A stretch of DNA of 64,000 bases from an uncultured Clostridia bacterium (GTDB lineage Bacteria; Bacillota; Clostridia; Christensenellales; Borkfalkiaceae): the NCBI GenBank assembly GCA_947623655.1, contig CANQHG010000004.1, positions 38,081 to 102,080 on the forward strand, read 5' to 3'. Position 1 is the first letter of the stretch; each line of letters begins with the position of its first letter. The notes below the pieces were generated by a model. The model had not been told where the DNA came from and did not search any database. It worked only from the letters and a program-made list of their open reading frames with translations. Positions 39,863 to 57,631 of this stretch are shown piece by piece. The position numbers were made by a program, and so were the translations under genes.

Positions 39863-39864
39863 CC

Positions 39865-40998: not shown

Positions 40999-41013
40999 AC
41001 TGTAAATTTACAT

Positions 41014-42078
41014 ATGAACGTATACGGAATTATTATGGCGGGCGGCGGCGGCACGAGGTTTTGGCCGCTCTCCCGCATTCATACCCCCAAACAACTGCTT
41101 AATCTGAGCGGGAAAGACGTTATGGTCAACGAGGCCGTTGCGCGCCTCTGCCGCATCACAGCGCCCGAAAATATCTACATCGCCACCAATACGGCACAGT
41201 CCGCTTCCATGGAAAAAGCGGTGAAAGGCAGGATCCCGCCCGAAAATATTCTTGCGGAACCGGCCGCACGCAACACGGCCGCCTGTATCGGGTATGCCGC
41301 GGTCGAACTCATCAAAAAGAGGGGAGACGGCGTGATGGTCATAACGCCTTCCGACGCCTATATCCGTGATGACGATGCTTTCGAACAGGTATTGCGAACG
41401 GCCGTGAAAGCGGCGGAAGAGACGGGAAAACTCGTTACGATCGGGATCGATCCCACATTTCCCGCCACGGGCTACGGGTATATCCGATTCAAAAAGTCGG
41501 ACGGGCCCGTGAAAGAAGTTTTAGAGTTTGTGGAGAAGCCCCCCCTCGAAAGAGCGAAAGAATATCTTGCGAGCGGCGACCATGTTTGGAACAGCGGCAT
41601 GTTCGTCTGGAAAATCTCCGCCATTCTGGAGCACTATAAGACGCTTTTGCCCGATCTTTATAATAATCTTGCGGAATTTTCCGAGGCAGTTGGCACCGAC
41701 AAGGAGCAAGACGCCTTAGAGAAGCTATACGGCAGGATAGAGGACATCTCTGTCGACTACGGCGTGATGGAGAAAAGCTACGATATCCTGGTTGTTCCCG
41801 GTGAATTCGGTTGGAGCGACGTCGGCAGTTGGGACATGCTCGGCGTGCTTCACGATCCCGAGGAAAACGGAAACGTCGTCGTGGGCGACGGCGTTCTCGT
41901 TGAATCAAAGAATAATATCGTATTTGCAAAAGATAAAACAGTGGCGCTCGTCGGCGTTTCCGATCTCGTTGTCGTGGAAACGCCCGATGCGGTGCTGGTT
42001 TGCCCGAAAGACAAAGCGCAGGACGTCAAAAAGGCCGTCGACGCGCTCAAGGCAATGGGCAGAGAGGATTTGCTTTGA
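41014..42078 (+). CDS. manC: Mannose-1-phosphate guanylyltransferase
   Basis: The enzyme makes GDP-mannose from mannose-1-phosphate and GTP. The 354-residue form is the single-domain nucleotidyltransferase, without the isomerase domain of bifunctional ManC. Motifs are IMAGGGGTRFWPLSR near 7, PKQLLNL, ILAEPAARNTAACIGYAA, VITPSDAYI, FVEKPPLERAKEYLASGDHVWNSGMFVW and PGEFGWSDVGSWDML. Isomerase activity is supplied by the separate manA three genes downstream. The stop overlaps the next ATG by one base. Confidence 0.95.
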   Translation: MNVYGIIMAGGGGTRFWPLSRIHTPKQLLNLSGKDVMVNEAVARLCRITAPENIYIATNTAQSASMEKAVKGRIPPENILAEPAARNTAACIGYAAVELIKKRGDGVMVITPSDAYIRDDDAFEQVLRTAVKAAEETGKLVTIGIDPTFPATGYGYIRFKKSDGPVKEVLEFVEKPPLERAKEYLASGDHVWNSGMFVWKISAILEHYKTLLPDLYNNLAEFSEAVGTDKEQDALEKLYGRIEDISVDYGVMEKSYDILVVPGEFGWSDVGSWDMLGVLHDPEENGNVVVGDGVLVESKNNIVFAKDKTVALVGVSDLVVVETPDAVLVCPKDKAQDVKKAVDALKAMGREDLL

Positions 42079-43802
42079 TGGATCATCTTGCGGAATATCG
42101 CCGATGGCTTACCGACAGCGTTTTCGATGAGGACACGAAAAACGAATTGAAGGCACTCACCGACGAAAAAGAAATCGAAGACAGGTTTTATAAAACGTTG
42201 GCCTTCGGCACCGGCGGGCTACGCGGCGTCGTGGGCGCAGGCACTAACCGCATGAATCTCTACACGGTGGGGCGTGCGACGCAGGGGCTTGCAGACTATA
42301 TCAATGCGCAAACGGAAAAAGGTAGCGTAGCCATTGCCTACGATTCGAGGCGTATGTCGGAAGAATTTGCTCTTTCTTCGGCATGTATTCTGGCGGCCAA
42401 CGGCATCAGGGCCTATCTTTTCGATGCGCTTCGTCCGACGCCCGAGCTCTCTTTCGCGGTAAGATATTTGCACGCGACGGCGGGCATCGTCATCACGGCG
42501 AGCCACAATCCCCCCGCATACAACGGCTATAAAGTCTATTGGTCGGACGGCGGACAGATCGTCCCCCCGCACGACAAAAATATTATTGCTTGCGTCAATA
42601 AGGTGGATTATAAAGATATCCGCCGTATCGGGAAAGAGGAGGCGGTCGGCAGAGGACTGCTGAAACCGATCGGGGAAGAGACGGACAGAGCTTATCTCGA
42701 CGCGCTCAAGAGTCTTTCGCTTTCGCCTGAAGCAGTCGCGCGGCAGGGGAAAAGACTCAAGATCGTATATACGCCTCTGCACGGCACGGGGAATGTACCT
42801 GTGCGTAGAATCTTGCAAGAGACGGGGTTCGAAAATGTGTTTGTCGTCCCCGAGCAGGAGTTTCCCGATCCGAATTTTTCGACGCTCGCCTATCCCAATC
42901 CCGAGGATCCCAAGGCCTTTGAATTTGCGCTTGCTCTCGCAAAGAAAGTCGATGCCGATCTTGTGCTCGCCACCGACCCCGACGCAGATCGTCTCGGCGT
43001 CTATGCAAAGGATAAAAACGGCACCTATGTGCGTTTTTCAGGCAATATGAGCGGATTGCTCATCGCAGAATATGTCTTGTCCCTCCGCAGAGAAAAGTGC
43101 CTTTTGCCCAAGAAGGGAGACGGCGCGCTCGTCACCACGATCGTCTCTTCCAAAATGGCATACCCCATTGCGGAAGAATATGGGCTCAAAGTCATCGAAA
43201 CGCTCACAGGGTTTAAATACATAGGAGAACAGATCGACCTCTTTGAGCGCGCGCGTGGGAAAAACGGCGGCAAGACGGACGGAGAGGCGGGCGCGTTTGC
43301 ATATGAATTCGGCTTCGAGGAGAGCTATGGTTGCCTCGCGGGCACATATGCAAGGGATAAAGACGCTGTGGCGGCCGTCATGTTGCTCGCTGAAGCGGCA
43401 GCATACTACGCTGAAAAAGGCCTTACACTTCCCGGGCAGATGGAGCGCATGTACCAAAAATACGGCTACTACACGGAAGATCTCTATACGGAGACGGCTG
43501 CGGGCGCCGCGGGCGCGGAACGGATCGGACAGGCAATGCAGGCCATGCGGAAAGATCCGCCCGCTTTTCTCGGCGGGAACCGCGTGATTGCTTTCACGGA
43601 TTATCTGAATGAAGAGCGGGGACTCCCGAAGAGCGACGTCCTCCGTTTTACGTTTGAGCGCGGCTGGTGTTGCGTCCGTCCGTCGGGTACGGAACCGAAG
43701 ATCAAGTTTTACATCGGTGTAAACGGCGAGCGCACGGATGCGGAAGAGCGCATCGGCGCGGTGAGACAAGATCTGCTGCGCTTGACGGGTTTTGAGGTTT
43801 AA
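42078..43802 (+). CDS. Phosphomannomutase / phosphoglucomutase
   Basis: The alpha-D-phosphohexomutase interconverts hexose-6- and hexose-1-phosphates. The 574-residue protein has FGTGGLRGVVGAGTNRMN near 43, the active-site TASHNPPAYNGYKVY with phosphoserine 142, the Mg loop TDPDADRLGVY, the sugar loop GFEESYGCLAG and the phosphate-binding VRPSGTEPKIKFY. Placed between manC and manA it most likely makes mannose-1-phosphate. It belongs to the long PgcA-type group, which may also use glucose and so supply glucose-1-phosphate to rfbF. The track ORF from 42000 begins inside manC; the ATG at 42078 overlaps the manC stop. Confidence 0.93.
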   Translation: MDHLAEYRRWLTDSVFDEDTKNELKALTDEKEIEDRFYKTLAFGTGGLRGVVGAGTNRMNLYTVGRATQGLADYINAQTEKGSVAIAYDSRRMSEEFALSSACILAANGIRAYLFDALRPTPELSFAVRYLHATAGIVITASHNPPAYNGYKVYWSDGGQIVPPHDKNIIACVNKVDYKDIRRIGKEEAVGRGLLKPIGEETDRAYLDALKSLSLSPEAVARQGKRLKIVYTPLHGTGNVPVRRILQETGFENVFVVPEQEFPDPNFSTLAYPNPEDPKAFEFALALAKKVDADLVLATDPDADRLGVYAKDKNGTYVRFSGNMSGLLIAEYVLSLRREKCLLPKKGDGALVTTIVSSKMAYPIAEEYGLKVIETLTGFKYIGEQIDLFERARGKNGGKTDGEAGAFAYEFGFEESYGCLAGTYARDKDAVAAVMLLAEAAAYYAEKGLTLPGQMERMYQKYGYYTEDLYTETAAGAAGAERIGQAMQAMRKDPPAFLGGNRVIAFTDYLNEERGLPKSDVLRFTFERGWCCVRPSGTEPKIKFYIGVNGERTDAEERIGAVRQDLLRLTGFEV

Positions 43803-43810
43803 AAAATACT

Positions 43811-44758
43811 ATGATTCGTCTTAAATCTATCTATAAGACAATGTTATGGGGCGGACTCAGGATCCGCGATTTTCTCCATAAGGACACGGGAGAACTCACA
43901 AAAGTTGCGGAGAGCTGGGAGGTTTCCACTCACCCGAGCGGCGAATGTCTGATCGCAAGCGGGGAATATGAGGGGAAGACCCTTTCGGAGTACTACGACG
44001 CTGTAGGTTGGGATCAGGCGGGCAGATATGCCATGAAACGCAAACGGCTGCCGATCATGGTCAAATATATCGACGCACGCGAAAATCTCTCCATTCAGGT
44101 CCATCCCGGCGAAAGGTATGCGAGAAAGCATGAGAACGACGGCGGAAAGAACGAGATGTGGTACATTCTCGACGCCGAGGAGACGGCATTTATCTATCTC
44201 GGCTTCAACCGCGACGTCACCAAGCAGGAAGTCCGCACTTCCATCAAAAACGGAACGATCGAAGGGCTTCTCAATAAAATTCCCGTCAAAAAGGGACAAG
44301 TCTTCTATATCCCCGCCGGCACGGTGCATGCCATCGGGGCGGGTTGCCTTATTTGCGAGATCCAACAGACGTCGGACGCAACTTACCGCCTCTACGACTA
44401 CGGCCGGATCGACGACAACGGCAAGCCCCGCCAACTCCATGTAAAAAGGGGATTGGAAGTTCTCAATCTGAAACGTACGCCTGTCCCGATGGTCAGAAGT
44501 ATTTCATCCATTAACCGTAAGGCAAAAAAAATGCTCGGCGTGATCGGGCATTTGACGGTCACGGAATACAACGCTTCGGGCGAGTTCACCTATTGGTGTC
44601 CCGACGCGCAGTTTGGCGTTGCGCTCGTGCTTGACGGCGAGGGCAAGATGAAGAGCGAAGAGGGCGTGACGCGCGTTGAACAGGGAGAGAGCTGGCTTCT
44701 CACTTCCCGTCACTACACCATTAAAGGCAAATGCCGCGTGGTGTGTATCAGCTATTGA
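43811..44758 (+). CDS. manA: Mannose-6-phosphate isomerase, class I
   Basis: The zinc enzyme converts fructose-6-phosphate to mannose-6-phosphate, the first step to GDP-mannose. The 315-residue protein is the short Firmicutes type. Zinc ligands sit in LSIQVHPGERYARKHE and FYIPAGTVHAIG, with the conserved GKNEMWYILDAEE and EIQQTSDATYRLYDYGR blocks, and a cupin-like C-terminal end. Together with the mutase and manC it completes the GDP-mannose path within three adjacent genes. Confidence 0.95.
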   Translation: MIRLKSIYKTMLWGGLRIRDFLHKDTGELTKVAESWEVSTHPSGECLIASGEYEGKTLSEYYDAVGWDQAGRYAMKRKRLPIMVKYIDARENLSIQVHPGERYARKHENDGGKNEMWYILDAEETAFIYLGFNRDVTKQEVRTSIKNGTIEGLLNKIPVKKGQVFYIPAGTVHAIGAGCLICEIQQTSDATYRLYDYGRIDDNGKPRQLHVKRGLEVLNLKRTPVPMVRSISSINRKAKKMLGVIGHLTVTEYNASGEFTYWCPDAQFGVALVLDGEGKMKSEEGVTRVEQGESWLLTSRHYTIKGKCRVVCISY

Positions 44759-44781
44759 TTTTGAATAAAGACGGGGAAAAC

Positions 44782-46020
44782 ATGACTGTTATCATCGTTT
44801 CGGATTTTGCCAACATCAATGGCGGCGCTGCCAAAGTCGCCATTGAAACCGCTCGCGGCCTTGCGCAAGCGGGACAAAACGTTATTTTCTTTGCAGGTTG
44901 CGGAAAGCCATCGGAGATGTTGTCGCACGAAAATATTCGCGTAATTGCGCTTGGAATGCCGGAACTTGCGCGGGGAAATAAGCTAAAGATGTTTTTTCAG
45001 GGGATCAAGAATCGGCGGTCAGAGATAGAATTCGGAAAACTTCTCGATACCGTTGATCCCGATGAAACTATTGTGCATATACATTCTTGGGTGAAAGTGC
45101 TTTCCCCAACGATTTTCCGTGCCCTGAAAAGACGTCATATGCCGTTTATCATTACGGCTCACGACTATTTTCTTACATGTCCTAACGGAGGATTTTTTCA
45201 TTATAAACATAACGAGATCTGCACGCTCAAGCGGGGTTTTCGTTGTTTTTGTACGAACTGCGACTCGCGTAGCTATCCCATTAAATTATGGCGCATTTTG
45301 CGTGACAGATTCCAAAGAAAATGCCTTAAGAACTGTGATTTTTCTCTTATCGTTATTTCCGATTTGATGAAACGTGTCCTTGGCAATGAAGCGAAAAGGG
45401 TCTATTTGTTGAAAAATCCTATCGATTTTAACGAATCCCGAACAATATCCGATAATTATGAGGATGCGTTTGCATTTGTCGGGAGGCTTTCACGGGAAAA
45501 AGGCATAGAAACGTACTGTGAAGCGCTGAGGATGACAGGATATCGCGGTTATATCGTCGGTGACGGACCCATCGCTTCGGATCTTCGTACGCGCTACTGC
45601 GGCAAAAATTTGGTTTTTACAGGTTGGAAGAACCGTGACGAAGTGAAAGCCGTATATAGCTCTGTGCGTTGTTTGGTGTTCCCGTCCGTATGGTATGAGG
45701 GGGCGCCGCTTACGATACCTGAAGCGCAGTCTTACGGCGTACCGTGCCTTGTTTCGGACGCGTGCTCTGCGGCAGAAGATATCGTCGACGGTGTTAACGG
45801 ATATGTGTTTCCCTCAAAAGACGCGGAGGCGCTTTCAGAGCATATGAAACGGATAATGCAATTTGATCGTAACGAGATAGACAAATTGCGTAAATCCACA
45901 TTTGATCGTTGCATGGCTGATAATTTAACTCTTCAAACACATATAGAGAAACTGATAGGGATCTATGACAAGGAGAAACAGAGCAATTATGAAGAACAGA
46001 GCGAACATGAAAGTAGATAA
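44782..46020 (+). CDS. Glycosyltransferase family 4
   Basis: The 412-residue GT-B enzyme starts MTVIIVSDFANINGGAAKVAIETARGLA, with the Gly-Gly-Ala loop. It has a Cys-rich stretch (CPNGGFFHYKHNEICTLKRGFRCFCTNC) seen in a subset of GT4 enzymes, the FVGRLSREKGIETYCEAL donor block and the E-x7-E region YEGAPLTIPEAQSYGVP near 312. The track start (44731) lies in manA; the ATG at 44782 follows GGGGAAAAC. The gene marks the beginning of a block with visibly lower GC than its neighbours. Its 3' end overlaps the next gene by up to 56 nt. Confidence 0.88.
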   Translation: MTVIIVSDFANINGGAAKVAIETARGLAQAGQNVIFFAGCGKPSEMLSHENIRVIALGMPELARGNKLKMFFQGIKNRRSEIEFGKLLDTVDPDETIVHIHSWVKVLSPTIFRALKRRHMPFIITAHDYFLTCPNGGFFHYKHNEICTLKRGFRCFCTNCDSRSYPIKLWRILRDRFQRKCLKNCDFSLIVISDLMKRVLGNEAKRVYLLKNPIDFNESRTISDNYEDAFAFVGRLSREKGIETYCEALRMTGYRGYIVGDGPIASDLRTRYCGKNLVFTGWKNRDEVKAVYSSVRCLVFPSVWYEGAPLTIPEAQSYGVPCLVSDACSAAEDIVDGVNGYVFPSKDAEALSEHMKRIMQFDRNEIDKLRKSTFDRCMADNLTLQTHIEKLIGIYDKEKQSNYEEQSEHESR

Positions 46021-47266
46021 TACGGTCAGTTTGCTTTTATGGTTGCTGTCCGTGCTTTTGATGTTACTCGGGCTGTTCGGGGTCGAGATGGCTTATTTTC
46101 TTGCTGTGTCTCTTTGTGCGTTTGCAATTTTGATCAAGGCGCGGATTTCCTATTTTTCCATTAAAACCATCGTACTCTATTATGTTTCTATTCCCGTAAT
46201 GGCAAAATACTTTTTCGGTTATTCCGTGGGGATTTTGTCGTCTACGAGCATCCCGCTTTATTATTCTGTTATGATGGGGATGCTGTATGTTTATTTCAGC
46301 ATAAATTTGTTTTTACTGATAAAGACGCGCATTCTTGCACTTGAGACGAAGATCATTAGAAACGGGTTCCATATCCCTACGGAATTTGTATATCTGTTCA
46401 GCATTTTAGCAATGATATGCATTATAATACAATTTCCCTATTTCAGGGACTTTTCGGGGAAAGAAGGCATGCAGACCCCGTTGCTCCCTGGCAGTGCTTG
46501 GAATGCCGTATCTCTTGTTTGTTTGATTTTTTGTCTGCCGTATATCGAAAAAAAATGGATCGTAAGAATAGCCTATTTGTTTGTTGTCCTTTGGTGCTTT
46601 CTGCATTTTGAGCGCGTTGACGCTCTCGGGATCCTGATACTTGTTCTGTTCTATTTTATGAAAAAATACCGCTTGTCTACCAAGTGGTATGTCGCGATCG
46701 GTGTTGCACTTCTTGCAATCTTGCTTGCGCTTGCCTATATCGGGAACTACCGCGCGGGCGGAACGGAGCAATCGATCTTTATGCAACTTTTGGTACAAAC
46801 TACCGCAAGCGACATATCTTATCTCTACAATATCGGGTTCCAATATATCGAAGATTACGGATTTTTGTTCGGGCGTTCGCTTTTGTCCTATTTTACGGAA
46901 CTGGTTCCCGGACTTTCAAGCCATTACGATATTTCCTCGATTTTATTTGACGCATACGGTCATCCCGGCGGACAATTTTTATTGAGCGAGCCGTTGATGA
47001 ATTTCGGAATGGTCGGCTTGCTGCTTTTTGCCTTTGCGGAATTCGGAGCTATCTATTTTGTCTTGAAAAAATGCAAAGGGGTCGGCTTCCTGTATTATGC
47101 ACTTTTGGTCGCGTCCCTTTTCCGCTATTGCTGGTATGGAATACATTACATCGAAACGGCATGCGTGTTTATTATACCGATTTTATATGTTGTGACGAAA
47201 TATGTGCGGTTCCGAGAACCCCGTGCGCATTGCGCAGAACATCTGAAGGGGAGAGAAAAATGTTAA
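45965..47266 (+). CDS. Wzy-like polysaccharide polymerase (multi-pass membrane protein)
   Basis: The 433-residue protein has about ten to eleven hydrophobic segments starting near residue 20, and a longer outer loop (roughly 255-335) between late helices, the usual layout of Wzy/O-antigen polymerases. Such proteins vary too much for a motif test, so the call rests on topology and on the position in a cluster that also has a Wzx flippase and an initiator. Three ATGs are possible (45965, 45989, 46007); the first has AGGGA close upstream but overlaps the previous gene by 56 nt. The stop overlaps the next ATG (ATGTTAA). AT-rich compared with the flanks. Confidence 0.75.
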   Translation: MTRRNRAIMKNRANMKVDNTVSLLLWLLSVLLMLLGLFGVEMAYFLAVSLCAFAILIKARISYFSIKTIVLYYVSIPVMAKYFFGYSVGILSSTSIPLYYSVMMGMLYVYFSINLFLLIKTRILALETKIIRNGFHIPTEFVYLFSILAMICIIIQFPYFRDFSGKEGMQTPLLPGSAWNAVSLVCLIFCLPYIEKKWIVRIAYLFVVLWCFLHFERVDALGILILVLFYFMKKYRLSTKWYVAIGVALLAILLALAYIGNYRAGGTEQSIFMQLLVQTTASDISYLYNIGFQYIEDYGFLFGRSLLSYFTELVPGLSSHYDISSILFDAYGHPGGQFLLSEPLMNFGMVGLLLFAFAEFGAIYFVLKKCKGVGFLYYALLVASLFRYCWYGIHYIETACVFIIPILYVVTKYVRFREPRAHCAEHLKGREKC

Positions 47267-47991
47267 AACTTTTTGTTGTGACACACAAGACTGTAGGCGC
47301 GATCCCTGCGGACAGAACGTTGATCGGCGTGGGGAGTGGCGAAATTGACAATGTCGATTTGCGTGATTCCGGCGGAGAGTCAATTTCGGAGAAAAATGCG
47401 AACTTCTGTGAACTGACCGCACTCTATTGGATATGGAAAAACGATTTTTCCGGAATGGTCGGATTGGAGCATTATCGTAGATTCTTTTGTAAAAAAACAC
47501 TGTTTGTCGCAAGACCGTTGTCGGTTTCTGCAATTGAGAAGAAATTAAAAAAATCAGATGTCTTGTTGCCGAGAAAATTGATCATGCGCGAAACGGTGTA
47601 CGAGCAATATAGTAACGGACATTTAATCTCCGATTTGGAGCTGTGTCGGAGTATTATCGACGAAAAGTATCCCGACTATCTTTCGTCCTTTGATAAAACC
47701 ATGAAGTGCAAACGAGCATACATGTATAACATGTTTGTGATGCGGCGCGAATTGCTCTGCGATTATGCGGAGTGGTTATTCTCCATCCTATTTGAAGCGG
47801 AGAAGCGGATAGACCTGACAGGGAGAGACCCATATCAACTTCGCGTGTTCGGTTTTTTGTCTGAACGATTATTTCAGGTATGGATTACCCATCACAAATT
47901 GAAAGTCAAGTGTGCACCTGTCTACAACATCGGAGAAAGGGTTTTTGTGCGAAACTGCAAATATTTGGCAAAAAAAATTCTGTTAAAATAA
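47260..47991 (+). CDS. DUF4422 domain protein, probable capsular glycosyltransferase
   Basis: The 243-residue protein matches the DUF4422 pattern: LKLFVVTHKTVGAIP at the start, NANFCELTALYWIWKND, and the hallmark VGLEHYRRFF near residue 66, followed by DVLLPRK and a RAYMYNMFVMRRELL block. DUF4422 proteins occur in capsule and exopolysaccharide clusters and are thought to be glycosyltransferases; substrates are not known. The track ORF from 47071 is in the polymerase; the ATG at 47260 follows AAGGGGAGAGAAAA. Confidence 0.85.
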   Translation: MLKLFVVTHKTVGAIPADRTLIGVGSGEIDNVDLRDSGGESISEKNANFCELTALYWIWKNDFSGMVGLEHYRRFFCKKTLFVARPLSVSAIEKKLKKSDVLLPRKLIMRETVYEQYSNGHLISDLELCRSIIDEKYPDYLSSFDKTMKCKRAYMYNMFVMRRELLCDYAEWLFSILFEAEKRIDLTGRDPYQLRVFGFLSERLFQVWITHHKLKVKCAPVYNIGERVFVRNCKYLAKKILLK

Positions 47992-48035
47992 ATCATCGAA
48001 GTACAATGCCAAAATTTTCGGAGTAAAAATCAACC

Positions 48036-48986
48036 ATGGAACAACTTACGATCGTGATTCCGACGTATAATCGCCCGGAAAACATAAAAAGAATTCTGTC
48101 CGAGCTTTCAAAGACATGGGCAGAGTACAGTTTCACTGTCTGGATCTTCGACAGCGGAACCAATGATGAAACAGAGAACGTGGTAAAGGAATATGCCGCG
48201 CCGTGCCTTCATTACCGTCGGGTCGATCCCTCCATGGACATCGACGAAAAGACACTCCTCGCCGTTCAAGAAGCGACGGGGCAGTATGTTTTGCTCTGCG
48301 GCGATCGGTATTGCCCGAGGATTCGGGAAATTTTTGAAACGATCGATTTCGAGCGGGAAAGCGCCGAGATCATCGCACTGTATGATTCCCGATGGGAGCC
48401 TCAAAAAAAATATTGCGAAAACTTGACACATGCCGATTATCATACCAAAGAGGATTTTTTTCGCGACCATTATTGGCAGTTGATTTTGTACGGAGGATCG
48501 ATCTGTCGTCGCTCTCTCTTTGACGGAATGGACTTGAATGGCTTGGTGAAGAGCTTCAATAAGACCGGGTTCATCTATCCCTCAACGCTTGCGATCCAAA
48601 GCAAAGGCAACTTGTTTTCATGGAGATGCGGCGAATTTCTCGAAGTTGCGCCTGTCGATTCACAGTGGGTGAAAAATAAGTCGGCGATCCGCATTTGGTG
48701 TTATCAATTTTGCCTTGTGCTCGACCGGTTGAAATCTGTTTTGGGGGAGTCTGTCTGCGAAGAAATCATTGCCACGACGGGGAAGCGGACAGAAATGTTG
48801 ACGCCGAGAAATCTTGCACGATACAAGGCAAACGGAAACTTTACGCTTTCAATCTATCGGAAGTATCGGAAGAGCATTTTTCGTACCTGTGCGTGCTCCA
48901 AGGCATACCTCAGACTATTGGCATATTCACCGACCTTTCTCTTTGCCTTTTTAAGATGGTTGCGGCATCCAAGAAAGAAAAAATAA
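48036..48986 (+). CDS. Glycosyltransferase family 2-like protein
   Basis: The 316-residue protein begins with the GT2 motif LTIVIPTYNRPENIKRILSEL. The usual metal-binding DxD after the Rossmann part reads LLCGDRYCPR (GD only), which suggests the TIGR00180-type branch found in polysaccharide clusters. The C-terminal end is very basic (RKYRKSIFRT...RWLRHPRKKK), possibly for membrane contact. It is the last gene of the low-GC block; the following rfbF returns to the GC content of the rest. Confidence 0.75.
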   Translation: MEQLTIVIPTYNRPENIKRILSELSKTWAEYSFTVWIFDSGTNDETENVVKEYAAPCLHYRRVDPSMDIDEKTLLAVQEATGQYVLLCGDRYCPRIREIFETIDFERESAEIIALYDSRWEPQKKYCENLTHADYHTKEDFFRDHYWQLILYGGSICRRSLFDGMDLNGLVKSFNKTGFIYPSTLAIQSKGNLFSWRCGEFLEVAPVDSQWVKNKSAIRIWCYQFCLVLDRLKSVLGESVCEEIIATTGKRTEMLTPRNLARYKANGNFTLSIYRKYRKSIFRTCACSKAYLRLLAYSPTFLFAFLRWLRHPRKKK

Positions 48987-49000
48987 CGGAGAAACGATCC

Positions 49001-49783
49001 ATGAAAGTTGTACTTTTGGCGGGGGGATTCGGGACCCGCATATCGGAAGAGTCTCAATATAAGCCCAAACCCATGATCGAGATCGGCGGCAAGCCCATCC
49101 TTTGGCACATCATGAAGGAGTATTCCTATTACGGATTCAATGATTTCATCATCTGCGCGGGCTACAAGCAGCATGTCATCAAAGAATGGTTTGCCGATTA
49201 CTTTTTGCACAACAGCGATATTACATTCGACTTTACAAAGGGCACAAACGACATGATCATTCATAACCAGACGTGCGAACCGTGGAGAGTGACCGTCGTG
49301 GACACGGGCCTGCATACGATGACGGGCGGCAGGATCAAGCGTGTGCGTCCCTACATCGGCGATGAGACCTTTATGATGACTTACGGCGACGGCGTTTGCG
49401 ACGTCGACATCTCTGAGCTCGTGAAATTTCACCGTTCTCATGGCAAGATCGCGACGCTCACTGCCGTGCAGCTCGAGCAGCAGAAAGGAGTGCTTGATAT
49501 CGGCGGCGACAATGCAGTGAAAGCGTTCCGCGAAAAGAGCATCACCGACGGCTCGCTCATCAATGCGGGCTACATGGTGTTGGAGCCTGAAGTTTTCGAC
49601 TATATTGAGGGCGATGGCACCGTGTTCGAGCGTGAACCGATGGAAAACCTCGTGAAAGACGGTCAGCTCATGTCTTACCGTCACAAGGGGTATTGGCAGT
49701 GTATGGATACCAAACGCGAGATGGATCTTCTCGAGCATCTTCTCGAGACCGACAACGCACCGTGGAAGAAGTGGAAAGATTGA
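49001..49783 (+). CDS. rfbF: Glucose-1-phosphate cytidylyltransferase
   Basis: The enzyme makes CDP-glucose from glucose-1-phosphate and CTP, the entry to CDP-3,6-dideoxysugars. The 260-residue protein has the diagnostic LLAGGFGTRISEESQYKPKPMIEIGGKPILWHIM, MTYGDGVCDVD with the metal site, and GYWQCMDTKREMDLLE at the end. The track ORF from 48695 is inside the GT2 gene; the ATG at 49001 follows ACGGAGAAACG. rfbG starts 1 nt after the stop. Confidence 0.96.
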   Translation: MKVVLLAGGFGTRISEESQYKPKPMIEIGGKPILWHIMKEYSYYGFNDFIICAGYKQHVIKEWFADYFLHNSDITFDFTKGTNDMIIHNQTCEPWRVTVVDTGLHTMTGGRIKRVRPYIGDETFMMTYGDGVCDVDISELVKFHRSHGKIATLTAVQLEQQKGVLDIGGDNAVKAFREKSITDGSLINAGYMVLEPEVFDYIEGDGTVFEREPMENLVKDGQLMSYRHKGYWQCMDTKREMDLLEHLLETDNAPWKKWKD

Positions 49784-49784
49784 T

Positions 49785-50843
49785 ATGTCAAATATAAATT
49801 TTTACAAGGGGAAGCGCGTTTTCGTCACTGGGCATACGGGTTTTAAGGGGGCATGGCTGTGCAAAATTCTGACGGACGCCGGCGCCGAGGTCACGGGCTA
49901 CGCTCTCGAGCCGCCCACAAAGCCAAATCTGTTTGCGCTTTCGGGGGTGGAAAAACGCATGCGTTCGGTCATCGGCGATGTGCGTGATTTCGCACATATG
50001 TATGAGATTTTTCAAGAGTGCAAGCCCGAGATCGTCTTTCATCTCGCCGCGCAGCCCATTGTCCGTGAGGGCTATCGCGATCCCCGCTATACCTATGAGA
50101 CAAACGTCATGGGGACGGTCAACCTGCTCGAGTGCGTCCGTCTTTCCAAAGGGGTAAAGAGCGTCCTCAACGTGACGACGGACAAGGTTTATTTCAATGA
50201 CGAAACTCCCGACCACGCGTTCCGTGAGGATGAACCGCTCGACGGGTACGATCCGTACAGTAACTCCAAGTCATGCAGTGAACTCGTGACGCACAGCTAT
50301 AAAAAATCCTTTTTCGGCAACGGCGTCGCTCTGTCTACGGCGCGTGCGGGAAACGTCATCGGCGGCGGAGATTTTGCGCCGGACCGCATTATTCCCGACT
50401 GCGTTCGTGCGGCGGAGAGAGGGGAGACGCTCATCGTGCGCAATCCCTATTCCACCCGCCCCTATCAGCATGTCCTCGAGCCGCTCGCGGTCTATCTCGA
50501 GATCGCCGAAAAGCAATATCGGGACGAAAAATTCGCAGGTTACTATAATGTCGGGCCTGACGTGTGCGACTGTGTGACGACGGGCGAACTCGCGACTCTC
50601 TTTTCCAAGGCGTGGGGCGGTGGCTTTGCGTGGGAGAACAGGGCGGACGGCGGGCCGCACGAGGCGGCTTTTCTCCAACTCGATAACACAAAGATCAAGG
50701 CGACGTTCGGTTGGTCGCCACGCTGGCATATTGGCGAGGCTGTCCGAAAAACTGTGGAATGGACAAAAGTCTATTTGAAAGATAAAGAAAGGATCCCCGC
50801 AGAGATGGAAGCGGAGATCGATGAATTTTTTATACGAAAATGA
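49785..50843 (+). CDS. rfbG: CDP-glucose 4,6-dehydratase
   Basis: The NAD-dependent SDR enzyme turns CDP-glucose into CDP-4-keto-6-deoxyglucose. The 352-residue protein has the cofactor motif VTGHTGFKGAWL near 14, FHLAAQPIVREGYRDPRYTYETNVMGTVNLLE, the active-site YSNSKSCSE (in place of the usual YGxSK) and RAGNVIGGGDFAPDRIIPD. These are typical of RfbG and separate it from dTDP-glucose dehydratases. The stop overlaps the flippase ATG. Confidence 0.95.
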   Translation: MSNINFYKGKRVFVTGHTGFKGAWLCKILTDAGAEVTGYALEPPTKPNLFALSGVEKRMRSVIGDVRDFAHMYEIFQECKPEIVFHLAAQPIVREGYRDPRYTYETNVMGTVNLLECVRLSKGVKSVLNVTTDKVYFNDETPDHAFREDEPLDGYDPYSNSKSCSELVTHSYKKSFFGNGVALSTARAGNVIGGGDFAPDRIIPDCVRAAERGETLIVRNPYSTRPYQHVLEPLAVYLEIAEKQYRDEKFAGYYNVGPDVCDCVTTGELATLFSKAWGGGFAWENRADGGPHEAAFLQLDNTKIKATFGWSPRWHIGEAVRKTVEWTKVYLKDKERIPAEMEAEIDEFFIRK

Positions 50844-52471
50844 AGGCAAAAAGCGTCAGGCATCACGGGTTAAAGGCCAATTTCATATTTAATTTTATCA
50901 GCCAGATCCTCACGCTGATCGTGCCGCTCATCACGACGCCCTATGTTTGGAACGTTTTGGGGCGCGACGGGAACGGACAATACAGTTTTTCCCTTTCGAT
51001 CATCACTTATTTTATTCTCTTTGCGAACATGGGGTTCGATCTTTACGGCCAAAAGCAAATTGCCGCCTGCCGTGAAGACAGAGAAAAAAAGAGCGCTATC
51101 TTTTGGGAACTCTTTTTCCTGAAATTTATCTTCACGGCAATATCGATGGGCATTTTGCTCGGTATTCTGTTCGGGATCGGGTTCGGAGAAAAGTACGATA
51201 GCCTTATTCTCATTTTGTCGATCCAGATCGTAGCTGTGCCGTTCGATATCCAGTTTCTCTTCCGCGGGGACGAAGATTTCCTTTCGATCGCACTCAGGAC
51301 GATTGTCTTGCGGCTCCTCGGCATGGTGTGTATCTTTGTGTTCGTGAAGAACGAGACGCATGTGTGGCTCTATTCGCTCTGCCTTTCTCTTTCGACGATT
51401 GCATCAAACCTCATCATGTGGCCGTCGGCTTTCAGACAAATATCCTTTGTCTCGCCCAAAAAGCTTTCGCTCTTCAAACATATCGTTCCCTCTCTCCTCA
51501 TTTTTCTTCCGACGCTTGCTATCACCGTCTATTCGGTGTTTGATAAGACGATGATCGGCCTTTTGGCACAAAATCCCGATGCGGAGAACGGATATTACGA
51601 AAAAGCGTACCAAATCAACAGCATTGCGCTCTTGCTGGTTACGATCATCTCGTCTGTATTGGTTTCGCGGAATGCCTATGACTACAGCGAGGGAAACTAC
51701 GAGAGGGTTCAGGGGCATTTGTATTCTGCGTCGCGATATGTCTGGATGATGGGACTTCCGCTCATCGCCGGGTTTGCTGTTCTGTCGCACAATCTCTGTG
51801 CATGGTTTTTCCGCACCGAATATGACGGGATTCCTATTCTTTTGATGATCATGTCGGTGCGATTTGTCGTTTCCGGATTCGGAGAAGTACTCGGAAACCA
51901 ACTCTTCATCGCGATCGGGAAAAATCAATATCCGCTGATTGCGACTCTCTGCGCGGCGGTCATCAATGTAACGCTCAATTATTTTCTGATCCCTATTTAC
52001 GGGGCTGTGGGCGCGGCGATCGCAACTGCCGCGTGTGAGGTCGTCGATACCGTCATTTACTTTATTATTGCGACAAAAAAGAAATACATCTCTTTTTGGA
52101 AAGTGCTGGCATCTTCGTGGAAATATCTTATTTCTGCGGCTGTCATGTTTGTCCCGATCTTTTTCATGCAACGCGCGATGGGAGAAACAGTTTGGACGTT
52201 TCTTCTCATCACCTTGGTCGGGGTCGTCGTCTATGCGCTTATGTTGGCGCTTCTGCGCGACACGTTTTTCTTGAAATATGTCAAAATCGCCTTTCAGACC
52301 GTCAAAAAGATCTTCAGAGGGAAGAACAAGACGGAAGCCGCAGCGGTTTCGGAGGGAGACGGTGCGCAAACGGGGGTTACGGAAGAACAAACGCAGGAGA
52401 TCGCAGAGACGGAAAATCAAGCCGAAAGCGAGATCCGTCAGGCGGACGAATATACAGAAGAAAACAAATAA
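50840..52471 (+). CDS. Wzx-type polysaccharide repeat-unit flippase
   Basis: The 543-residue protein has about fourteen hydrophobic segments and the polysaccharide transporter (PST/MATE) start LKANFIFNFISQILTLIVPLITTPYVWNVLGRDGNGQYSF. It should move undecaprenyl-linked repeat units to the outer face, where the Wzy protein joins them. An unusual cytoplasmic tail of about 60 residues, rich in Glu, Gln and Ala (EEQTQEIAETENQAESEI), follows the last helix. It sits between rfbG and rfbH and overlaps rfbG by four bases. Confidence 0.9.
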   Translation: MKAKSVRHHGLKANFIFNFISQILTLIVPLITTPYVWNVLGRDGNGQYSFSLSIITYFILFANMGFDLYGQKQIAACREDREKKSAIFWELFFLKFIFTAISMGILLGILFGIGFGEKYDSLILILSIQIVAVPFDIQFLFRGDEDFLSIALRTIVLRLLGMVCIFVFVKNETHVWLYSLCLSLSTIASNLIMWPSAFRQISFVSPKKLSLFKHIVPSLLIFLPTLAITVYSVFDKTMIGLLAQNPDAENGYYEKAYQINSIALLLVTIISSVLVSRNAYDYSEGNYERVQGHLYSASRYVWMMGLPLIAGFAVLSHNLCAWFFRTEYDGIPILLMIMSVRFVVSGFGEVLGNQLFIAIGKNQYPLIATLCAAVINVTLNYFLIPIYGAVGAAIATAACEVVDTVIYFIIATKKKYISFWKVLASSWKYLISAAVMFVPIFFMQRAMGETVWTFLLITLVGVVVYALMLALLRDTFFLKYVKIAFQTVKKIFRGKNKTEAAAVSEGDGAQTGVTEEQTQEIAETENQAESEIRQADEYTEENK

Positions 52472-52483
52472 ACGGAGGATCAT

Positions 52484-53830
52484 ATGTTTGAAAACATGAC
52501 CGAACAGGAAGCACGCGAAAAAATCAAGGAAATGGTCGCGGCATATTATCGCGCATATAAGCAGAAAAAGCCGTTTGAAGAGGGCGACCGTATCACTTAT
52601 GCGGCGCGTGTATTCGACGAAAAGGAAATGTGTGCGCTCACAGACGCGACGCTTGACTTTTGGCTCACGACGGGTAGATTTTGCGAGCAATTCGAAAAGG
52701 AGTTTGCAAAGTGGATCGGCGTTAAATTTGCGCATCTCGTGAACAGCGGTTCCTCTGCAAATCTGATCGCATTTTCAGCCTTGACGGCGCCCGAGCTCGG
52801 GGAACGCAGGATAAAACGCGGCGACGAAGTGATCACAGTCGCGTGCGGGTTCCCGACGACTGTTGCGCCCATCCTGCAATACGGAGCGGTGCCCGTCTTT
52901 GTGGATGTCACCGTCCCCGCATACAATATCGACGTCGCCAAACTTGAGGGGGCGCTGTCGGAACGCACCAAAGCCGTCATGATCGCCCACACCTTGGGAA
53001 ATCCTTTCGACCTCGGAGCCGTAAAAGCGTTCTGCGAAAAACATCATCTTTGGCTCGTTGAAGACAACTGCGACGCGCTTGGCAGCGAATACACGATCGA
53101 CGGCGTAACAAAATTCACGGGCACTTGGGGAGATATCGGTACGAGCAGTTTCTATCCGCCTCATCACATGACGATGGGCGAGGGAGGATGCGTCTATACC
53201 AACGATCCGCTCTTGAACCGCCTGATCCTCTCCTACCGTGATTGGGGGCGCGATTGTATTTGTCCCTCGGGGAAGGACAACTTCTGCGGGCACCGCTTCG
53301 ACGGCCAATTCGGAGAACTTCCCAAGGGGTACGACCATAAATATGTCTATAGTCATCTCGGATATAATCTGAAAGTCACGGACATGCAGGCCGCGATCGG
53401 CTGTGAACAGCTCAAAAAATTCCCCTCGTTCATCGAGAGAAGACGGCATAATTGGCAGAGGCTCCGCGCCGCGCTCGCGCCCGCGGAGGATAAGCTCATT
53501 CTCCCGGAACCCGAGGCGAACAGCAAGCCGTCTTGGTTCGGTTTCCTGATCTCCGTGAAAGAGGGCAGCGGCCTCGACCGCAACGGGATGACGCGCTATC
53601 TCGAACAGTGCAACATTCAGACGCGACTTCTCTTCAGCGGAAATCTCACGCGGCATCCCTGCTTTGACGATATCCGCGGCACGGACGCTTACCGCATTGC
53701 GGGCGAGCTCACGGTGACCGATTTCATCATGAACAACACGTTCTGGGTCGGCGTCTATCCCGGCATGACGGACGAGATGATCGATTATATGGCGAAGAAA
53801 ATTCTGGAGGCGGCGGCACAACGGGCATAA
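52484..53830 (+). CDS. rfbH: CDP-4-dehydro-6-deoxyglucose 3-dehydratase (E1, RfbH)
   Basis: The PMP-dependent [2Fe-2S] enzyme removes the 3-OH of CDP-4-keto-6-deoxyglucose, towards 3,6-dideoxyhexoses. The 448-residue aspartate-aminotransferase-fold protein has SFYPPHHMTMGEGG, where His replaces the PLP Lys, the hallmark of E1. The cluster cysteines are visible: one in EDNCDALGSEY and a C-x-C-x7-C in CICPSGKDNFC. The spacing from the first Cys is 61 rather than the 57 residues known for Yersinia E1, from a short insertion. No E3 reductase gene (RfbI/AscD type) is in the cluster. The ATG follows GGAGGATCAT. Confidence 0.95.
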   Translation: MFENMTEQEAREKIKEMVAAYYRAYKQKKPFEEGDRITYAARVFDEKEMCALTDATLDFWLTTGRFCEQFEKEFAKWIGVKFAHLVNSGSSANLIAFSALTAPELGERRIKRGDEVITVACGFPTTVAPILQYGAVPVFVDVTVPAYNIDVAKLEGALSERTKAVMIAHTLGNPFDLGAVKAFCEKHHLWLVEDNCDALGSEYTIDGVTKFTGTWGDIGTSSFYPPHHMTMGEGGCVYTNDPLLNRLILSYRDWGRDCICPSGKDNFCGHRFDGQFGELPKGYDHKYVYSHLGYNLKVTDMQAAIGCEQLKKFPSFIERRRHNWQRLRAALAPAEDKLILPEPEANSKPSWFGFLISVKEGSGLDRNGMTRYLEQCNIQTRLLFSGNLTRHPCFDDIRGTDAYRIAGELTVTDFIMNNTFWVGVYPGMTDEMIDYMAKKILEAAAQRA

Positions 53831-53880: not shown

Positions 53881-54690
53881 ATGGAAAGTAAAGCGCTTGC
53901 AAAGGCCGTCAGGATCGATGTGGTTGAGATGATTCATCGGTCTCATGCGTCTCATATCGGATCGGCACTGTCGATCGTCGATATTCTGAGCGTCTTATAC
54001 ACGGATATCATGAAATATGATACCGCCGATCCCGCGTGGGAAGGGCGGGACAGACTTGTTTTGAGCAAGGGGCATGCGGGTTCCGCGCTCTATGCCGTTC
54101 TGGCCGAAGTCGGATTTTTCCCGAAATCGTGGCTTGAAAACTATGATTTGAACGGGAGCCCGCTTTCGGGTCACGTCTCCCACAAGGGCGTTCCCGGTGT
54201 GGAATTTTCCACGGGCTCCTTGGGGCACGGGGCATGCGTCGCATGCGGCATGGCGCTTGCGTCGAAGTTGAACGGAAAGACGAACAGAACTTTTGCGATC
54301 GTCGGCGACGGTGAATGTGATGAGGGCTCGATTTGGGAAATGGCCATGTTTGCCAATCATTTCCGCCTTTCGGATTTCACATTGATCGTCGACTGCAACG
54401 GGTTGCAAAGTTTCGGCCCCTGCGAAGAGACGATCGAACTCCTGGATCTCGGCCGTAAATTCCGCGACTTCGGCTGGAATGTCATGGAGGTCGAAGGGCA
54501 CGACCACGATGCATTGCGCAAAGCCTTTTCCGCACGTCCGTCAAACGGAAGACCGACCTGCGTGATCGCAAAAACCGTCAAGGGCAAGGGCGTTTCTTTT
54601 ATGGAAAACAACGTTTTATGGCATTACAGAGATCCGCAGGGTGAGGAGTACGAGAGGGCTCTCTCTGAATTACAAGGAGCGGAACAATGA
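53881..54690 (+). CDS. Transketolase-like protein, N-terminal (thiamine-diphosphate-binding) subunit
   Basis: The 269-residue protein equals the first domain of transketolase. It has SHASHIGSALSIVDILSVLY, LVLSKGHAGSALYAVL, and the thiamine diphosphate/metal motif GDGECDEGSIWEMAMFANHF...DCNGLQSFG. The pyrimidine-binding half is on the next gene, which overlaps by four bases, so the two form one enzyme. Split transketolases occur in archaea, in many anaerobes and in sugar-modification clusters. Directly after rfbH, it may transfer a two-carbon ketol unit to the CDP-ketosugar; a housekeeping role is the alternative. AAGGAGAAC precedes the ATG. Confidence 0.88.
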   Translation: MESKALAKAVRIDVVEMIHRSHASHIGSALSIVDILSVLYTDIMKYDTADPAWEGRDRLVLSKGHAGSALYAVLAEVGFFPKSWLENYDLNGSPLSGHVSHKGVPGVEFSTGSLGHGACVACGMALASKLNGKTNRTFAIVGDGECDEGSIWEMAMFANHFRLSDFTLIVDCNGLQSFGPCEETIELLDLGRKFRDFGWNVMEVEGHDHDALRKAFSARPSNGRPTCVIAKTVKGKGVSFMENNVLWHYRDPQGEEYERALSELQGAEQ

Positions 54691-55610
54691 GAAATACGTT
54701 GGTAAAAACGTTGACCGAGGAAGCGCTCAAGGACAATACTATCATGCTCCTGACGGGCGACCTCGGGTTCAATGTCCTCAATAAGTTTTATGACGTATTG
54801 CCGCAACAATATGTCAATGCGGGAATCAGCGAGCAGAACATGACTTCCGTTGCGGCAGGGCTCGCCCTCTCGGGGAAGAAAGTCTTTACCTATTCGATTG
54901 GGAATTTTTCGACGTTGAGATGTTTTGAGCAGATCCGAAACGACATCTGCTATCACAATGCGAACGTCAAAGTCGTATCCCTCGCCGCCGGATTTGCCTA
55001 TGGTCCGCTCGGCATGAGCCATCATGCGACGGAGGACATCGCCTGCATGCGGTCGCTCCCTAACATGCGCGTTTTTTCGCCCGCCGATCCCTTAGAGACG
55101 ATCGCCGTGACTAAGGCCGCGATCACCTCGGACGGACCCTGTTACATCCGTCTCGGAAAGGGCGGGGAACCGAATTTGAGAGAAGCTTTCGACATTGAAA
55201 ATTTTGAAGTCGGAAAGGCGTATCAACTGCGTGACGGAAAAGCAAATGTATGTATTTTTTCCACAGGGTCCGTGACGAAAGAGGCAATTCTGGCGGCGGA
55301 ACAACTGAAAGACAGAGGCAGTATTCCCGTCTACACATTTCCGACGGTAAAGCCCATCGACGAAGAGTTTATCCGTGCTTGCGCGGAACGTTACGATGCG
55401 ATTTTGACCTTGGAGGAGCACAATATTGTCGGCGGCCTCGGCGGAGCCGTTGCGGAGGTGCTGGCCGAAAACCCGAGCAGGGCACGTTTGATCCGCTTGG
55501 GACTTCGGGACGTGTTCTCAAGCGTAGTCGGGGACGTTGCATATCTGAGGCATTACTATAAAATCGATGCGGAAGCGGTCGTAACCGCATTGGAGAAGGT
55601 GTTGAAATGA
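54687..55610 (+). CDS. Transketolase-like protein, C-terminal (pyrimidine-binding) subunit
   Basis: The 307-residue protein holds the second and third transketolase domains. NAGISEQNMTSVAAGLALSGKKVF contains the Glu that activates thiamine diphosphate, and SHHATEDIACMRSLPNMRVFSPADP, CYIRLGKGGEP and the C-terminal EEHNIVGGLGGAVAEVL are family blocks. It is translationally coupled to both neighbours (ATGA overlaps), which ties the enzyme to the SDR gene behind it. Confidence 0.88.
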   Translation: MRNTLVKTLTEEALKDNTIMLLTGDLGFNVLNKFYDVLPQQYVNAGISEQNMTSVAAGLALSGKKVFTYSIGNFSTLRCFEQIRNDICYHNANVKVVSLAAGFAYGPLGMSHHATEDIACMRSLPNMRVFSPADPLETIAVTKAAITSDGPCYIRLGKGGEPNLREAFDIENFEVGKAYQLRDGKANVCIFSTGSVTKEAILAAEQLKDRGSIPVYTFPTVKPIDEEFIRACAERYDAILTLEEHNIVGGLGGAVAEVLAENPSRARLIRLGLRDVFSSVVGDVAYLRHYYKIDAEAVVTALEKVLK

Positions 55611-56530
55611 AACAGGCAATCGTTACGGGCGCAACGGGCTCGATCGGAACCGAACTTGTCCATAATTTATTGAGGAAAGGCGTTCGGGTATGCGCGATTC
55701 TCCGCGAAGGCTCGGCGCATAATTCCCGTTTGCCCGAGCATCCGCTCCTGAAAAAGATATATTGTCCTCTGCAGGATCTATCCGCACTTCAAAATGCAGA
55801 CGGAGAAAGCTACGACGTCTTTTATCATCTGGCATGGGACGGGATAAGCGGGCCCACGCGGCAGGAACTCCAAAGACAGACGGAAAATATCCGCTACGCG
55901 CTCGATGCCGTGGAACTTGCAAAGCGGTTCGGGTGCCATACCTTTATCGGCGCGGGGTCGCAGGCCGAATATGGAAGGGTAGAGGGCGAACTCAGGCCCG
56001 ACACGCCCGCCTTTCCCGAAAACGGTTACGGTATTGCCAAGCTCTGCGCGGGTCAGATGTGCCGCGAGCGTGCCCGCCAGCTCGGGATGAAATTTATGTG
56101 GGTGCGCATTGTGAGCGTCTACGGACCGTATGACGGACCGCAGAGCATGATCTCCTCCACGATCAAAAAACTCCTCGCGGGGGAGCGGGCTCCCTTCACC
56201 AAGGGCGAGCAGCTGTGGGACTATCTCTACAGCGCAGACGCCGCCGAGGCGTTCTATCAGATCGGCGAAAGAGGCAAAGACGGAAAAATTTATGTGCTCG
56301 GAAGCGGCACGGCGCGGCCGCTCGCGGAATACATTCGCCTCATCGGCAGGACGTGCGGTGCGGAGGACAAGATCGATCTCGGCGCTGTCCCGTATGCCGA
56401 GCGGCAGGTGATGTGCCTGAAAGCGGACATTTCAGATTTACAAAAAGACACGGGTTGGACGCCCGAGACGAAGTTTGAGGACGGTATGAAATTGATTGTT
56501 AAAAAATATCAACAATTTGGAGATAAATAA
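55607..56530 (+). CDS. NAD-dependent epimerase/dehydratase (extended SDR)
   Basis: The 307-residue protein has the cofactor motif VTGATGSIGTELV at 5, FYHLAWDG, GAGSQAEYGRVEG, the active-site YGIAK near 145, and VRIVSVYGPYDGP. It resembles nucleotide-sugar epimerases and ketoreductases. Because it overlaps the transketolase gene, I infer that it reduces or epimerises the CDP-sugar made by RfbH and the transketolase. The exact reaction cannot be read from the sequence. Confidence 0.85.
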   Translation: MKQAIVTGATGSIGTELVHNLLRKGVRVCAILREGSAHNSRLPEHPLLKKIYCPLQDLSALQNADGESYDVFYHLAWDGISGPTRQELQRQTENIRYALDAVELAKRFGCHTFIGAGSQAEYGRVEGELRPDTPAFPENGYGIAKLCAGQMCRERARQLGMKFMWVRIVSVYGPYDGPQSMISSTIKKLLAGERAPFTKGEQLWDYLYSADAAEAFYQIGERGKDGKIYVLGSGTARPLAEYIRLIGRTCGAEDKIDLGAVPYAERQVMCLKADISDLQKDTGWTPETKFEDGMKLIVKKYQQFGDK

Positions 56531-56533
56531 ATT

Positions 56534-57631
56534 ATGTATGACTATCTGATCGTCGGAAGCGGGCTCTTTGGCGCGGTGTGTGCGAGAGAGCTCACAAACC
56601 GAGGGAAAAAATGCCTCGTCATCGAAAAACGCTCGCATATCGGCGGAAATATCTACACGGAAAATATTGAAGGCATCAACGTGCACCGCTACGGCGCTCA
56701 TATCTTCCATACGTCCGATAAGACCGTGTGGGAATATGTCAACAAGTTCGCGGAGTTCAACAACTACGTCAACTGTCCCGTTGCAAGGTATCATGACGAA
56801 TGCTACAACCTGCCTTTCAACATGAACACTTTCACCAAGCTCTGGCCCGACGTCTTCACGCCCGCCGAGGCGGAGGCGAGGATCGCCAAAGAGCGCGGCG
56901 AGGCGTATGTGGAAGCGCCTCAAAACCTCGAGGAACAGGCGATCAATCTCGTCGGCAAGACCATCTACGAAAAACTCGTCAAGGGCTACACCGAAAAGCA
57001 GTGGGGGAAGAAATGCACCGAGCTCCCCGCCTTCATTATCCGCCGCCTGCCCGTGCGTTTTACCTTTGATAACAACTATTTCAACGACCGCTATCAGGGT
57101 ATCCCCATCGGCGGCTACACGCAGATGATCGAGCGCATGCTTGAAGGCGTCGAAGTGCGGCTCAACTGCGACTTTTTCGCACATAAGTGCGAGTTTTTGC
57201 AGGAAACGCAACATGTTATCTACACGGGCGCGATCGACAGATATTTCGATTATTGCTACGGCCCGCTCGAATACCGCTCGGTGCGGTTTGAGACGGAAGT
57301 TATCGATATGCCCAACTTTCAGGGGAATGCCGTCGTCAACTATACGGCGGCGGAAGTGCCTTTCACGCGCATCATCGAACACAAGCATTTCGAATTCGGC
57401 ACCCAACCGAAGACGGTCATTTCGCGCGAGTATTCTTCCGCCTGGAAGCCGGGGGACGAACCTTATTATCCCGTCAATGACGAAAAAAACGGCAACTTAT
57501 ATGCGAAATACAGGGCTCTGGCGGAGGAAGAGAAGAATGTCGTATTCGGCGGCCGTCTCGGCCAATACAAATATTACGACATGGACGACGTGATCATGAG
57601 CGCCTTTGAAATGCTGAAAACACTTAAATAA
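56534..57631 (+). CDS. glf: UDP-galactopyranose mutase
   Basis: The flavoenzyme converts UDP-galactopyranose to UDP-galactofuranose, the donor for Galf residues. The 365-residue protein has the FAD motif LIVGSGLFGAVCARE at 5, IGGNIYTENIEGINVHRYGAHIFHT, YTEKQWGKKCTELPA, PIGGYTQMIERML and RLGQYKYYDMDD, all diagnostic. It is the last gene of the cluster and is followed by a strong terminator. No separate Galf transferase is recognised, so one of the GT genes may act as one. Confidence 0.97.
   Translation: MYDYLIVGSGLFGAVCARELTNRGKKCLVIEKRSHIGGNIYTENIEGINVHRYGAHIFHTSDKTVWEYVNKFAEFNNYVNCPVARYHDECYNLPFNMNTFTKLWPDVFTPAEAEARIAKERGEAYVEAPQNLEEQAINLVGKTIYEKLVKGYTEKQWGKKCTELPAFIIRRLPVRFTFDNNYFNDRYQGIPIGGYTQMIERMLEGVEVRLNCDFFAHKCEFLQETQHVIYTGAIDRYFDYCYGPLEYRSVRFETEVIDMPNFQGNAVVNYTAAEVPFTRIIEHKHFEFGTQPKTVISREYSSAWKPGDEPYYPVNDEKNGNLYAKYRALAEEEKNVVFGGRLGQYKYYDMDDVIMSAFEMLKTLK

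Follow-up and report, generated by a model that had tools for sequence, protein, structure and literature searches.

The genes tktN and tktC, which follow rfbH in a polysaccharide operon of an uncultured Clostridia bacterium, encode the two halves of a transketolase-like enzyme and are strong candidates for a novel route to branched sugars. The pair is probably a split thiamine diphosphate (ThDP) carboligase of a specialised polysaccharide subfamily, which replaces YerE and would transfer a hydroxyacetyl unit to C-4 of a CDP-sugar, with subsequent reduction giving rise to a branched octose. Judged on its sequence, it is a member of the transketolase superfamily distinct from the pentose-phosphate transketolase, and is predicted to work like YerE without being a YerE.

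The window, the whole 64,000-nucleotide stretch of DNA analysed (G000:C4:38081-102080), derives from a 1.66 Mb genome (G000; 94.7 % complete). All the genes described here are located on the forward strand, in the order rfbF-rfbG-wzx-rfbH-tktN-tktC-SDR. The first two encode a glucose-1-phosphate cytidylyltransferase forming CDP-glucose (RfbF; 49001..49783; TIGR02623, 373.8 bits, cut-off 300) and a CDP-glucose 4,6-dehydratase forming CDP-4-keto-6-deoxyglucose (RfbG; 49785..50843; TIGR02622, 416.7 bits, cut-off 278), and are separated from rfbH (52484..53830) by a gene for a Wzx-type polysaccharide flippase (50840..52471; PF01943, E 5e-25). RfbH is a PMP/[2Fe-2S] CDP-4-keto-6-deoxyglucose 3-dehydrase of the E1 type (NF011936, 721 bits, cut-off 423), in which a histidine replaces the PLP lysine (SSFYPPHHMTMGEGG) and the E1-type cysteines CICPSGKDNFC can be read from the translation. 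Downstream of rfbH are tktN, the ThDP-binding half of a split transketolase (53881..54690; 269 aa; PF00456 Transketolase_N, E 7e-39), tktC, its pyrimidine-binding and C-terminal half (54687..55610; 307 aa; PF02779/PF02780, Transket_pyr and Transketolase_C), and an extended SDR gene, the product of which is the proposed reductase of the new branch (55607..56530; 307 aa; PF01370 Epimerase, E 5e-40). The identities of RfbF, RfbG and RfbH put forward in the original prediction are upheld by these scores, with the NCBIfam equivalog cut-offs passed for all three as well as for the UDP-galactopyranose mutase (Glf; 56534..57631; TIGR00031, 440 bits, cut-off 304) that neighbours the SDR in the same operon. 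Likewise, the Pfam domains and intact reading frames of tktN, tktC and the SDR gene bear out the two transketolase halves and SDR expected after the rfb genes, and both ATGA overlaps said to join them can be read in the sequence (54687..54690 and 55607..55610). The supposed fusion of tktN to rfbH by overlap does not exist, as a gap of 50 bases separates the two genes, with a Shine-Dalgarno-like sequence (AAGGAGAACAG) 5' of tktN. From Pfam matches and reading frames, the remainder of the polysaccharide cluster (39185..48986) comprises an initiating sugar transferase (39185-39862), glycosyltransferases, including DUF4422 and GT2 glycosyltransferases, a ManC-like nucleotidyltransferase, a phosphohexomutase-like protein, PMI and a membrane protein which has no Pfam match and is Wzy-like by position.

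Among 297 genomes of the order, fourteen encode a close RfbH; twelve surroundings were fetched, to which locus L093 and the window were added. A YerE-like ThDP gene, defined by the TPP_enzyme_N/M/C domains of the decarboxylase superfamily, occurs in ten of the thirteen other rfbH clusters of the order, 3' of rfbH (L205, L206, L208-L214 and L216). The SDR family of the window is present in eight of these ten clusters, and no such SDR was found on the fetched stretches of L211 and L216. The nearest relative, which belongs to the same family but another genus (G1043/L205), has the order wzx-rfbF-rfbG-rfbH-YerE-like-SDR, with the same flippase gene 5' of rfbF, and shares 76 % (RfbF), 72 % (RfbG) and 82 % (RfbH) identity with the window; its SDR, which follows the YerE-like gene, is 62 % identical to that of the window, a comparison with the SDR of a relative rather than with Yersinia YerF. 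The corresponding slot in the window holds the transketolase in place of a decarboxylase-superfamily YerE. Thus tktN-tktC occupies the YerE slot together with the SDR that partners YerE. The two enzymes are similarly interchanged in loci with a GtrA gene, with rfbF-rfbG-rfbH-GtrA-tktN-tktC-SDR found in another family (G636/L093) and rfbF-rfbG-rfbH-GtrA-SDR-YerE in L046. The YerE-like protein of the latter matches PDB entry 8rph ('Thiamine pyrophosphate-binding protein'), which we take to be the YerE-like enzyme JanthE, at 377 bits, whereas its best acetolactate synthase match scores 223. Furthermore, rfbH-YerE-tktN-tktC-SDR form a single run in G1060/L214 (L214:5002-9412), where the YerE-like gene is split over two reading frames by a frameshift or assembly error; this locus may represent replacement caught in progress, or else an assembly error. 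In L140 (6514-8765) the next ORF after a YerE-like gene consists of part of the SDR fused to the end of TktN, which is a deletion or an assembly artefact. The YerE-like genes of three rfbFGH clusters (L046:4322-5776, L050:14009-15566 and L208:12710-14328) are accompanied by genes that are aldolase-like and HAD-like by eye, and these may provide a donor 2-oxo acid with a longer chain, as is the case for ErwE-type enzymes. Chance adjacency of the genes can be dismissed, since the arrangement recurs in many genomes, including those of other families and classes.

The module also occurs without rfbH. Three loci (L111, L141 and L144) contain rfbF-rfbG-tktN-tktC-SDR, with a GtrA-like gene 5' of tktN in L144, while in L172 rfbF-tktN-tktC-SDR are followed at a distance by rfbG, and L189 contains rfbF, SDR, tktN and tktC. 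RfbH was found in none of these five whole genomes, which may be incomplete. As all five retain rfbF, tktN, tktC and the SDR, RfbH is ruled out as a required step, and the common module therefore consists of CDP-4-keto-6-deoxyglucose, TktNC and the SDR. In these five genomes the acceptor is probably CDP-4-keto-6-deoxyglucose itself, and in the window, where RfbH is present, it would be the 3-deoxy form. As a point against the proposed pathway, no FNR-type reductase that could act as the E3 partner of RfbH was found in G000. The FAD_binding_6 domain had no match in five genomes that all encode RfbH (E1), namely G000, G1043, G636, G1030 and G892, and NAD_binding_1 had none in G000, the sole genome searched for that domain.

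Within one 15-row clade of the SDR tree (support 100), sequences from Tkt loci are interspersed with those from YerE loci, and in a second, more distant lineage the SDR of the Tkt locus L037 is sister to that of the YerE locus L047 (support 99). The window SDR carries the motifs GATGSIG, GSQAEYG, YGIAK and WDYLY, as do the SDRs following YerE-like genes, with GSQAEYG, YGxAK and WDYLY common to the SDRs of both kinds of loci. In Paenibacillus cellulosilyticus a single protein (WP_110042955.1; L217:5097-7004) comprises an SDR (residues 18-368) and TktN (373-632), the regions being set by alignment to the SDR and TktN of the window. It is encoded on plasmid NZ_CP054609.1 in the order rfbF-rfbG-C-methyltransferase-[SDR-TktN fusion]-tktC-O-methyltransferase-glycosyltransferase. 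An alternative explanation holds that the SDR acts simply as a C-4 ketoreductase, yielding an abequose- or paratose-type 3,6-dideoxyhexose, and that TktN/TktC produces or remodels an unrelated building block of the same polysaccharide. Loci L042 and L051 contain rfbH and a related SDR with no adjacent ThDP enzyme, and the SDR could thus be a simple 4-ketoreductase; in addition, most members of the polysaccharide Tkt clade occur in cassettes that lack rfbF/rfbG. However, this explanation appears improbable when considering that in most loci the SDR occurs together with YerE or TktNC, that it is fused to TktN in Paenibacillus, and that TktN-TktC-SDR adjoin rfbF/rfbG even in the absence of rfbH.

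TktN retains H25, H65, H98, D143, N173 and H248, with WHYR in place of WHG, and TktC retains the catalytic E49. At the positions equivalent to E. coli H461, E468, D469 and R520, TktC has A100, P107, L108 and K158, so that H461, D469 and R520, the acceptor and phosphate-end residues of pentose-phosphate transketolases, are all replaced. This pattern is uniform among the members of the polysaccharide clade, of which 85/85 keep the residues that correspond to E. coli E411, H26, H66, H100, H261, H473, D155 and N185, and 85/85 have lost H461, E468 and D469, with H461 changed to Gly/Ala and D469 mostly to Leu. All of these residues, including H461, E468 and D469, are kept in 13/13 generic split forms. 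D469 and R520 variants of the E. coli transketolase have better activity with non-hydroxylated aldehydes (PMC3657141), and the H100L change, made to admit pyruvate, did result in pyruvate use (PMC10787763). The retention of the H100 equivalent (H98) therefore argues for a hydroxylated donor, and the residue pattern as a whole fits a ketol (hydroxyacetyl) donor and a non-standard acceptor. A second alternative is that TktN/TktC branches the CDP-4-keto sugar with an acetyl group derived from pyruvate, or with a longer acyl group, as YerE and ErwE do, giving a product equal to or like a known yersiniose-type sugar. Acetyl or acyl transfer fits with the YerE slot and shared SDR, and TktC scores well on models of DXS (145 bits), an enzyme which uses pyruvate. 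Against this, TktN fits transketolase far better than DXS, and the very histidine altered in E. coli to admit pyruvate (PMC10787763) is conserved in all 85 members of the clade; this alternative is considered unlikely. Taking the loss of H461 and D469 as proof of a CDP-sugar acceptor would go too far, given that this loss is shared by the FGGY-kinase-linked catabolic split transketolases (L218, L219 and L220), and marks an altered substrate end rather than a CDP-sugar. The parallel with YerE, earlier drawn from gene order alone, is nevertheless now backed by the slot replacement, the shared SDR, the SDR-TktN fusion and the active-site pattern.

The division of domains over the pair, with Transketolase_N on one chain and Transket_pyr and Transketolase_C on the other, is that of a split transketolase, and the best PDB match of TktN is the split transketolase 6yak, while TktC matches 6yaj. 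Both comparisons with housekeeping enzymes suggested in the original prediction separate the pair from them. G000 encodes another, complete transketolase of 663 aa on contig 1 with canonical motifs (THDSIGVGEDGPTH, GHPE) and residues. In a tree of concatenated TktN and TktC sequences, the 85 polysaccharide-type pairs, including that of the window, are separated with full support from thirteen generic Clostridia split transketolases, outside of which the window pair falls. When catabolic split transketolases were added in a second tree, the polysaccharide clade was recovered with support of 100/99, the catabolic forms of L218, L219 and L220 being its nearest outgroup, and an rfb-linked Bacillota subclade (twelve rfb-linked pairs and one other) with support of 100/100. 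Linkage to rfbF/rfbG also occurs outside this main subclade, in L037, L175, L189 and L217. The pair is absent from the same-genus genomes G618, G705 and G741, and is therefore accessory. Although Clostridia frequently carry generic split transketolases, a pentose-phosphate transketolase carried into the operon is ruled out for practical purposes by the second full-length enzyme, the separate clade and the lost H461/D469, together with the absence of the pair from these three genomes.

In the pathway proposed on the basis of gene content, RfbF and RfbG would produce CDP-4-keto-6-deoxy-D-glucose, from which RfbH would take off O-3. TktN/TktC would then put a two-carbon unit on the C-4 ketone, most likely a hydroxyacetyl unit derived from a ketose phosphate or hydroxypyruvate, resulting in a 4-C-glycoloyl tertiary alcohol. 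The SDR is predicted to reduce the side-chain ketone, and the branched octose would be incorporated into the Wzx-exported polysaccharide.

A search for relatives of TktC in GTDB genomes yielded 80 loci. Some twelve of these show linkage to rfbF/rfbG, while most of the others are polysaccharide loci without these two genes and belong to many phyla. Cultured carriers of tktN-tktC include Agathobaculum desmolans ATCC 43058 (L127) and Paenibacillus cellulosilyticus KACC 14175 (L217). A frequent cassette (L094-L097 and L112-L190) consists of an initiating sugar transferase, an AKR or FabG-like SDR, tktN and tktC, with no nucleotide-sugar dehydratase genes inside. In seven loci from Chloroflexi, Acidobacteria and others (L162-L165, L174, L178 and L182) a DegT-type aminotransferase gene follows tktN-tktC, and the ketone product may be aminated there instead of reduced. 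A broader reading, to which roughly even credence is given, is that a large undescribed split-transketolase subfamily of polysaccharide operons takes ketone acceptors. Its rfbF/rfbG-linked branch would move hydroxyacetyl to CDP-4-keto-6-deoxy(3-deoxy)hexose to form 4-C-(dihydroxyethyl) octoses, having repeatedly replaced YerE, and the branch with a sugar transferase and AKR/FabG would make a second branched unit. To our knowledge, no 4-C-(dihydroxyethyl) octoses have yet been described in polysaccharides.

The loci amount to a natural swap experiment, in which the same slot and the same SDR are combined with either YerE or TktNC. A 2025 review on tertiary-alcohol-forming ThDP enzymes considers the ketone-acceptor role of transketolases as still pending, and its thirteen further candidates are all from Streptomycetes (PMC12247030). 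Compared with this list, candidates now also occur in Bacillota, Elusimicrobiota and Verrucomicrobiota, with a CDP-sugar acceptor suggested by the operon. If the proposed function is true, a novel type of branched sugar can be predicted for bacterial surfaces, as well as a new biocatalyst for hydroxylated tertiary alcohols. Proteins labelled as 'transketolase' in polysaccharide loci should not be taken as pentose-phosphate enzymes. Searches of the available literature found no paper linking rfbH to such a transketolase, and nothing for a split or apulose transketolase.

Several known systems resemble the window pair in part. The housekeeping split transketolase of Carboxydothermus hydrogenoformans (6yaj/6yak) shares the two-gene organisation, the domains and the ThDP/Mg residues, but the window pair differs from this type in the loss of H461, E468 and D469, in having WHYR for WHG and HVSH for HPD, and in belonging to a clade apart from the generic split forms. 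The catabolic FGGY-linked split transketolases, possibly apulose-4-phosphate transketolases, are closer in that they form the nearest outgroup and share the H461/D469 loss, but they adjoin sugar transport and kinase genes and not nucleotide-sugar genes. For the SDR, a counterpart exists in the ketoreductase of the paulomycin octose, which converts a C-4 acyl branch to a C-4 hydroxyalkyl branch (PMC4753412). This is the role proposed for the window SDR, the parallel drawn here being one of role, and the sugar of paulomycin is an antibiotic sugar with an acetyl branch. Split transketolases have also been proposed to branch a keto sugar by hydroxyacetyl transfer in miharamycin and amipurimycin biosynthesis, with their function pending (PMC12247030). 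These are likened to the window pair by description rather than by sequence, and belong to the secondary metabolism of Streptomycetes, whereas the pairs considered here occur in CDP-sugar polysaccharide operons of Bacillota and others. The proposed functional parallel is with YerE (yersiniose A) and ErwE (erwiniose), in which a CDP-4-keto-deoxyglucose precursor is combined with a branch-adding ThDP carboligase and units derived from 2-oxo acids are added to CDP-4-keto-3,6-dideoxyglucose (PMC12247030). The window operon shares with the YerE pathway rfbF/rfbG (and rfbH), and its SDR family is that found beside the YerE-like genes of close relatives. However, YerE is a member of the decarboxylase superfamily that uses 2-oxo acids, while the window encodes a two-subunit enzyme of the transketolase superfamily with other Pfam domains.
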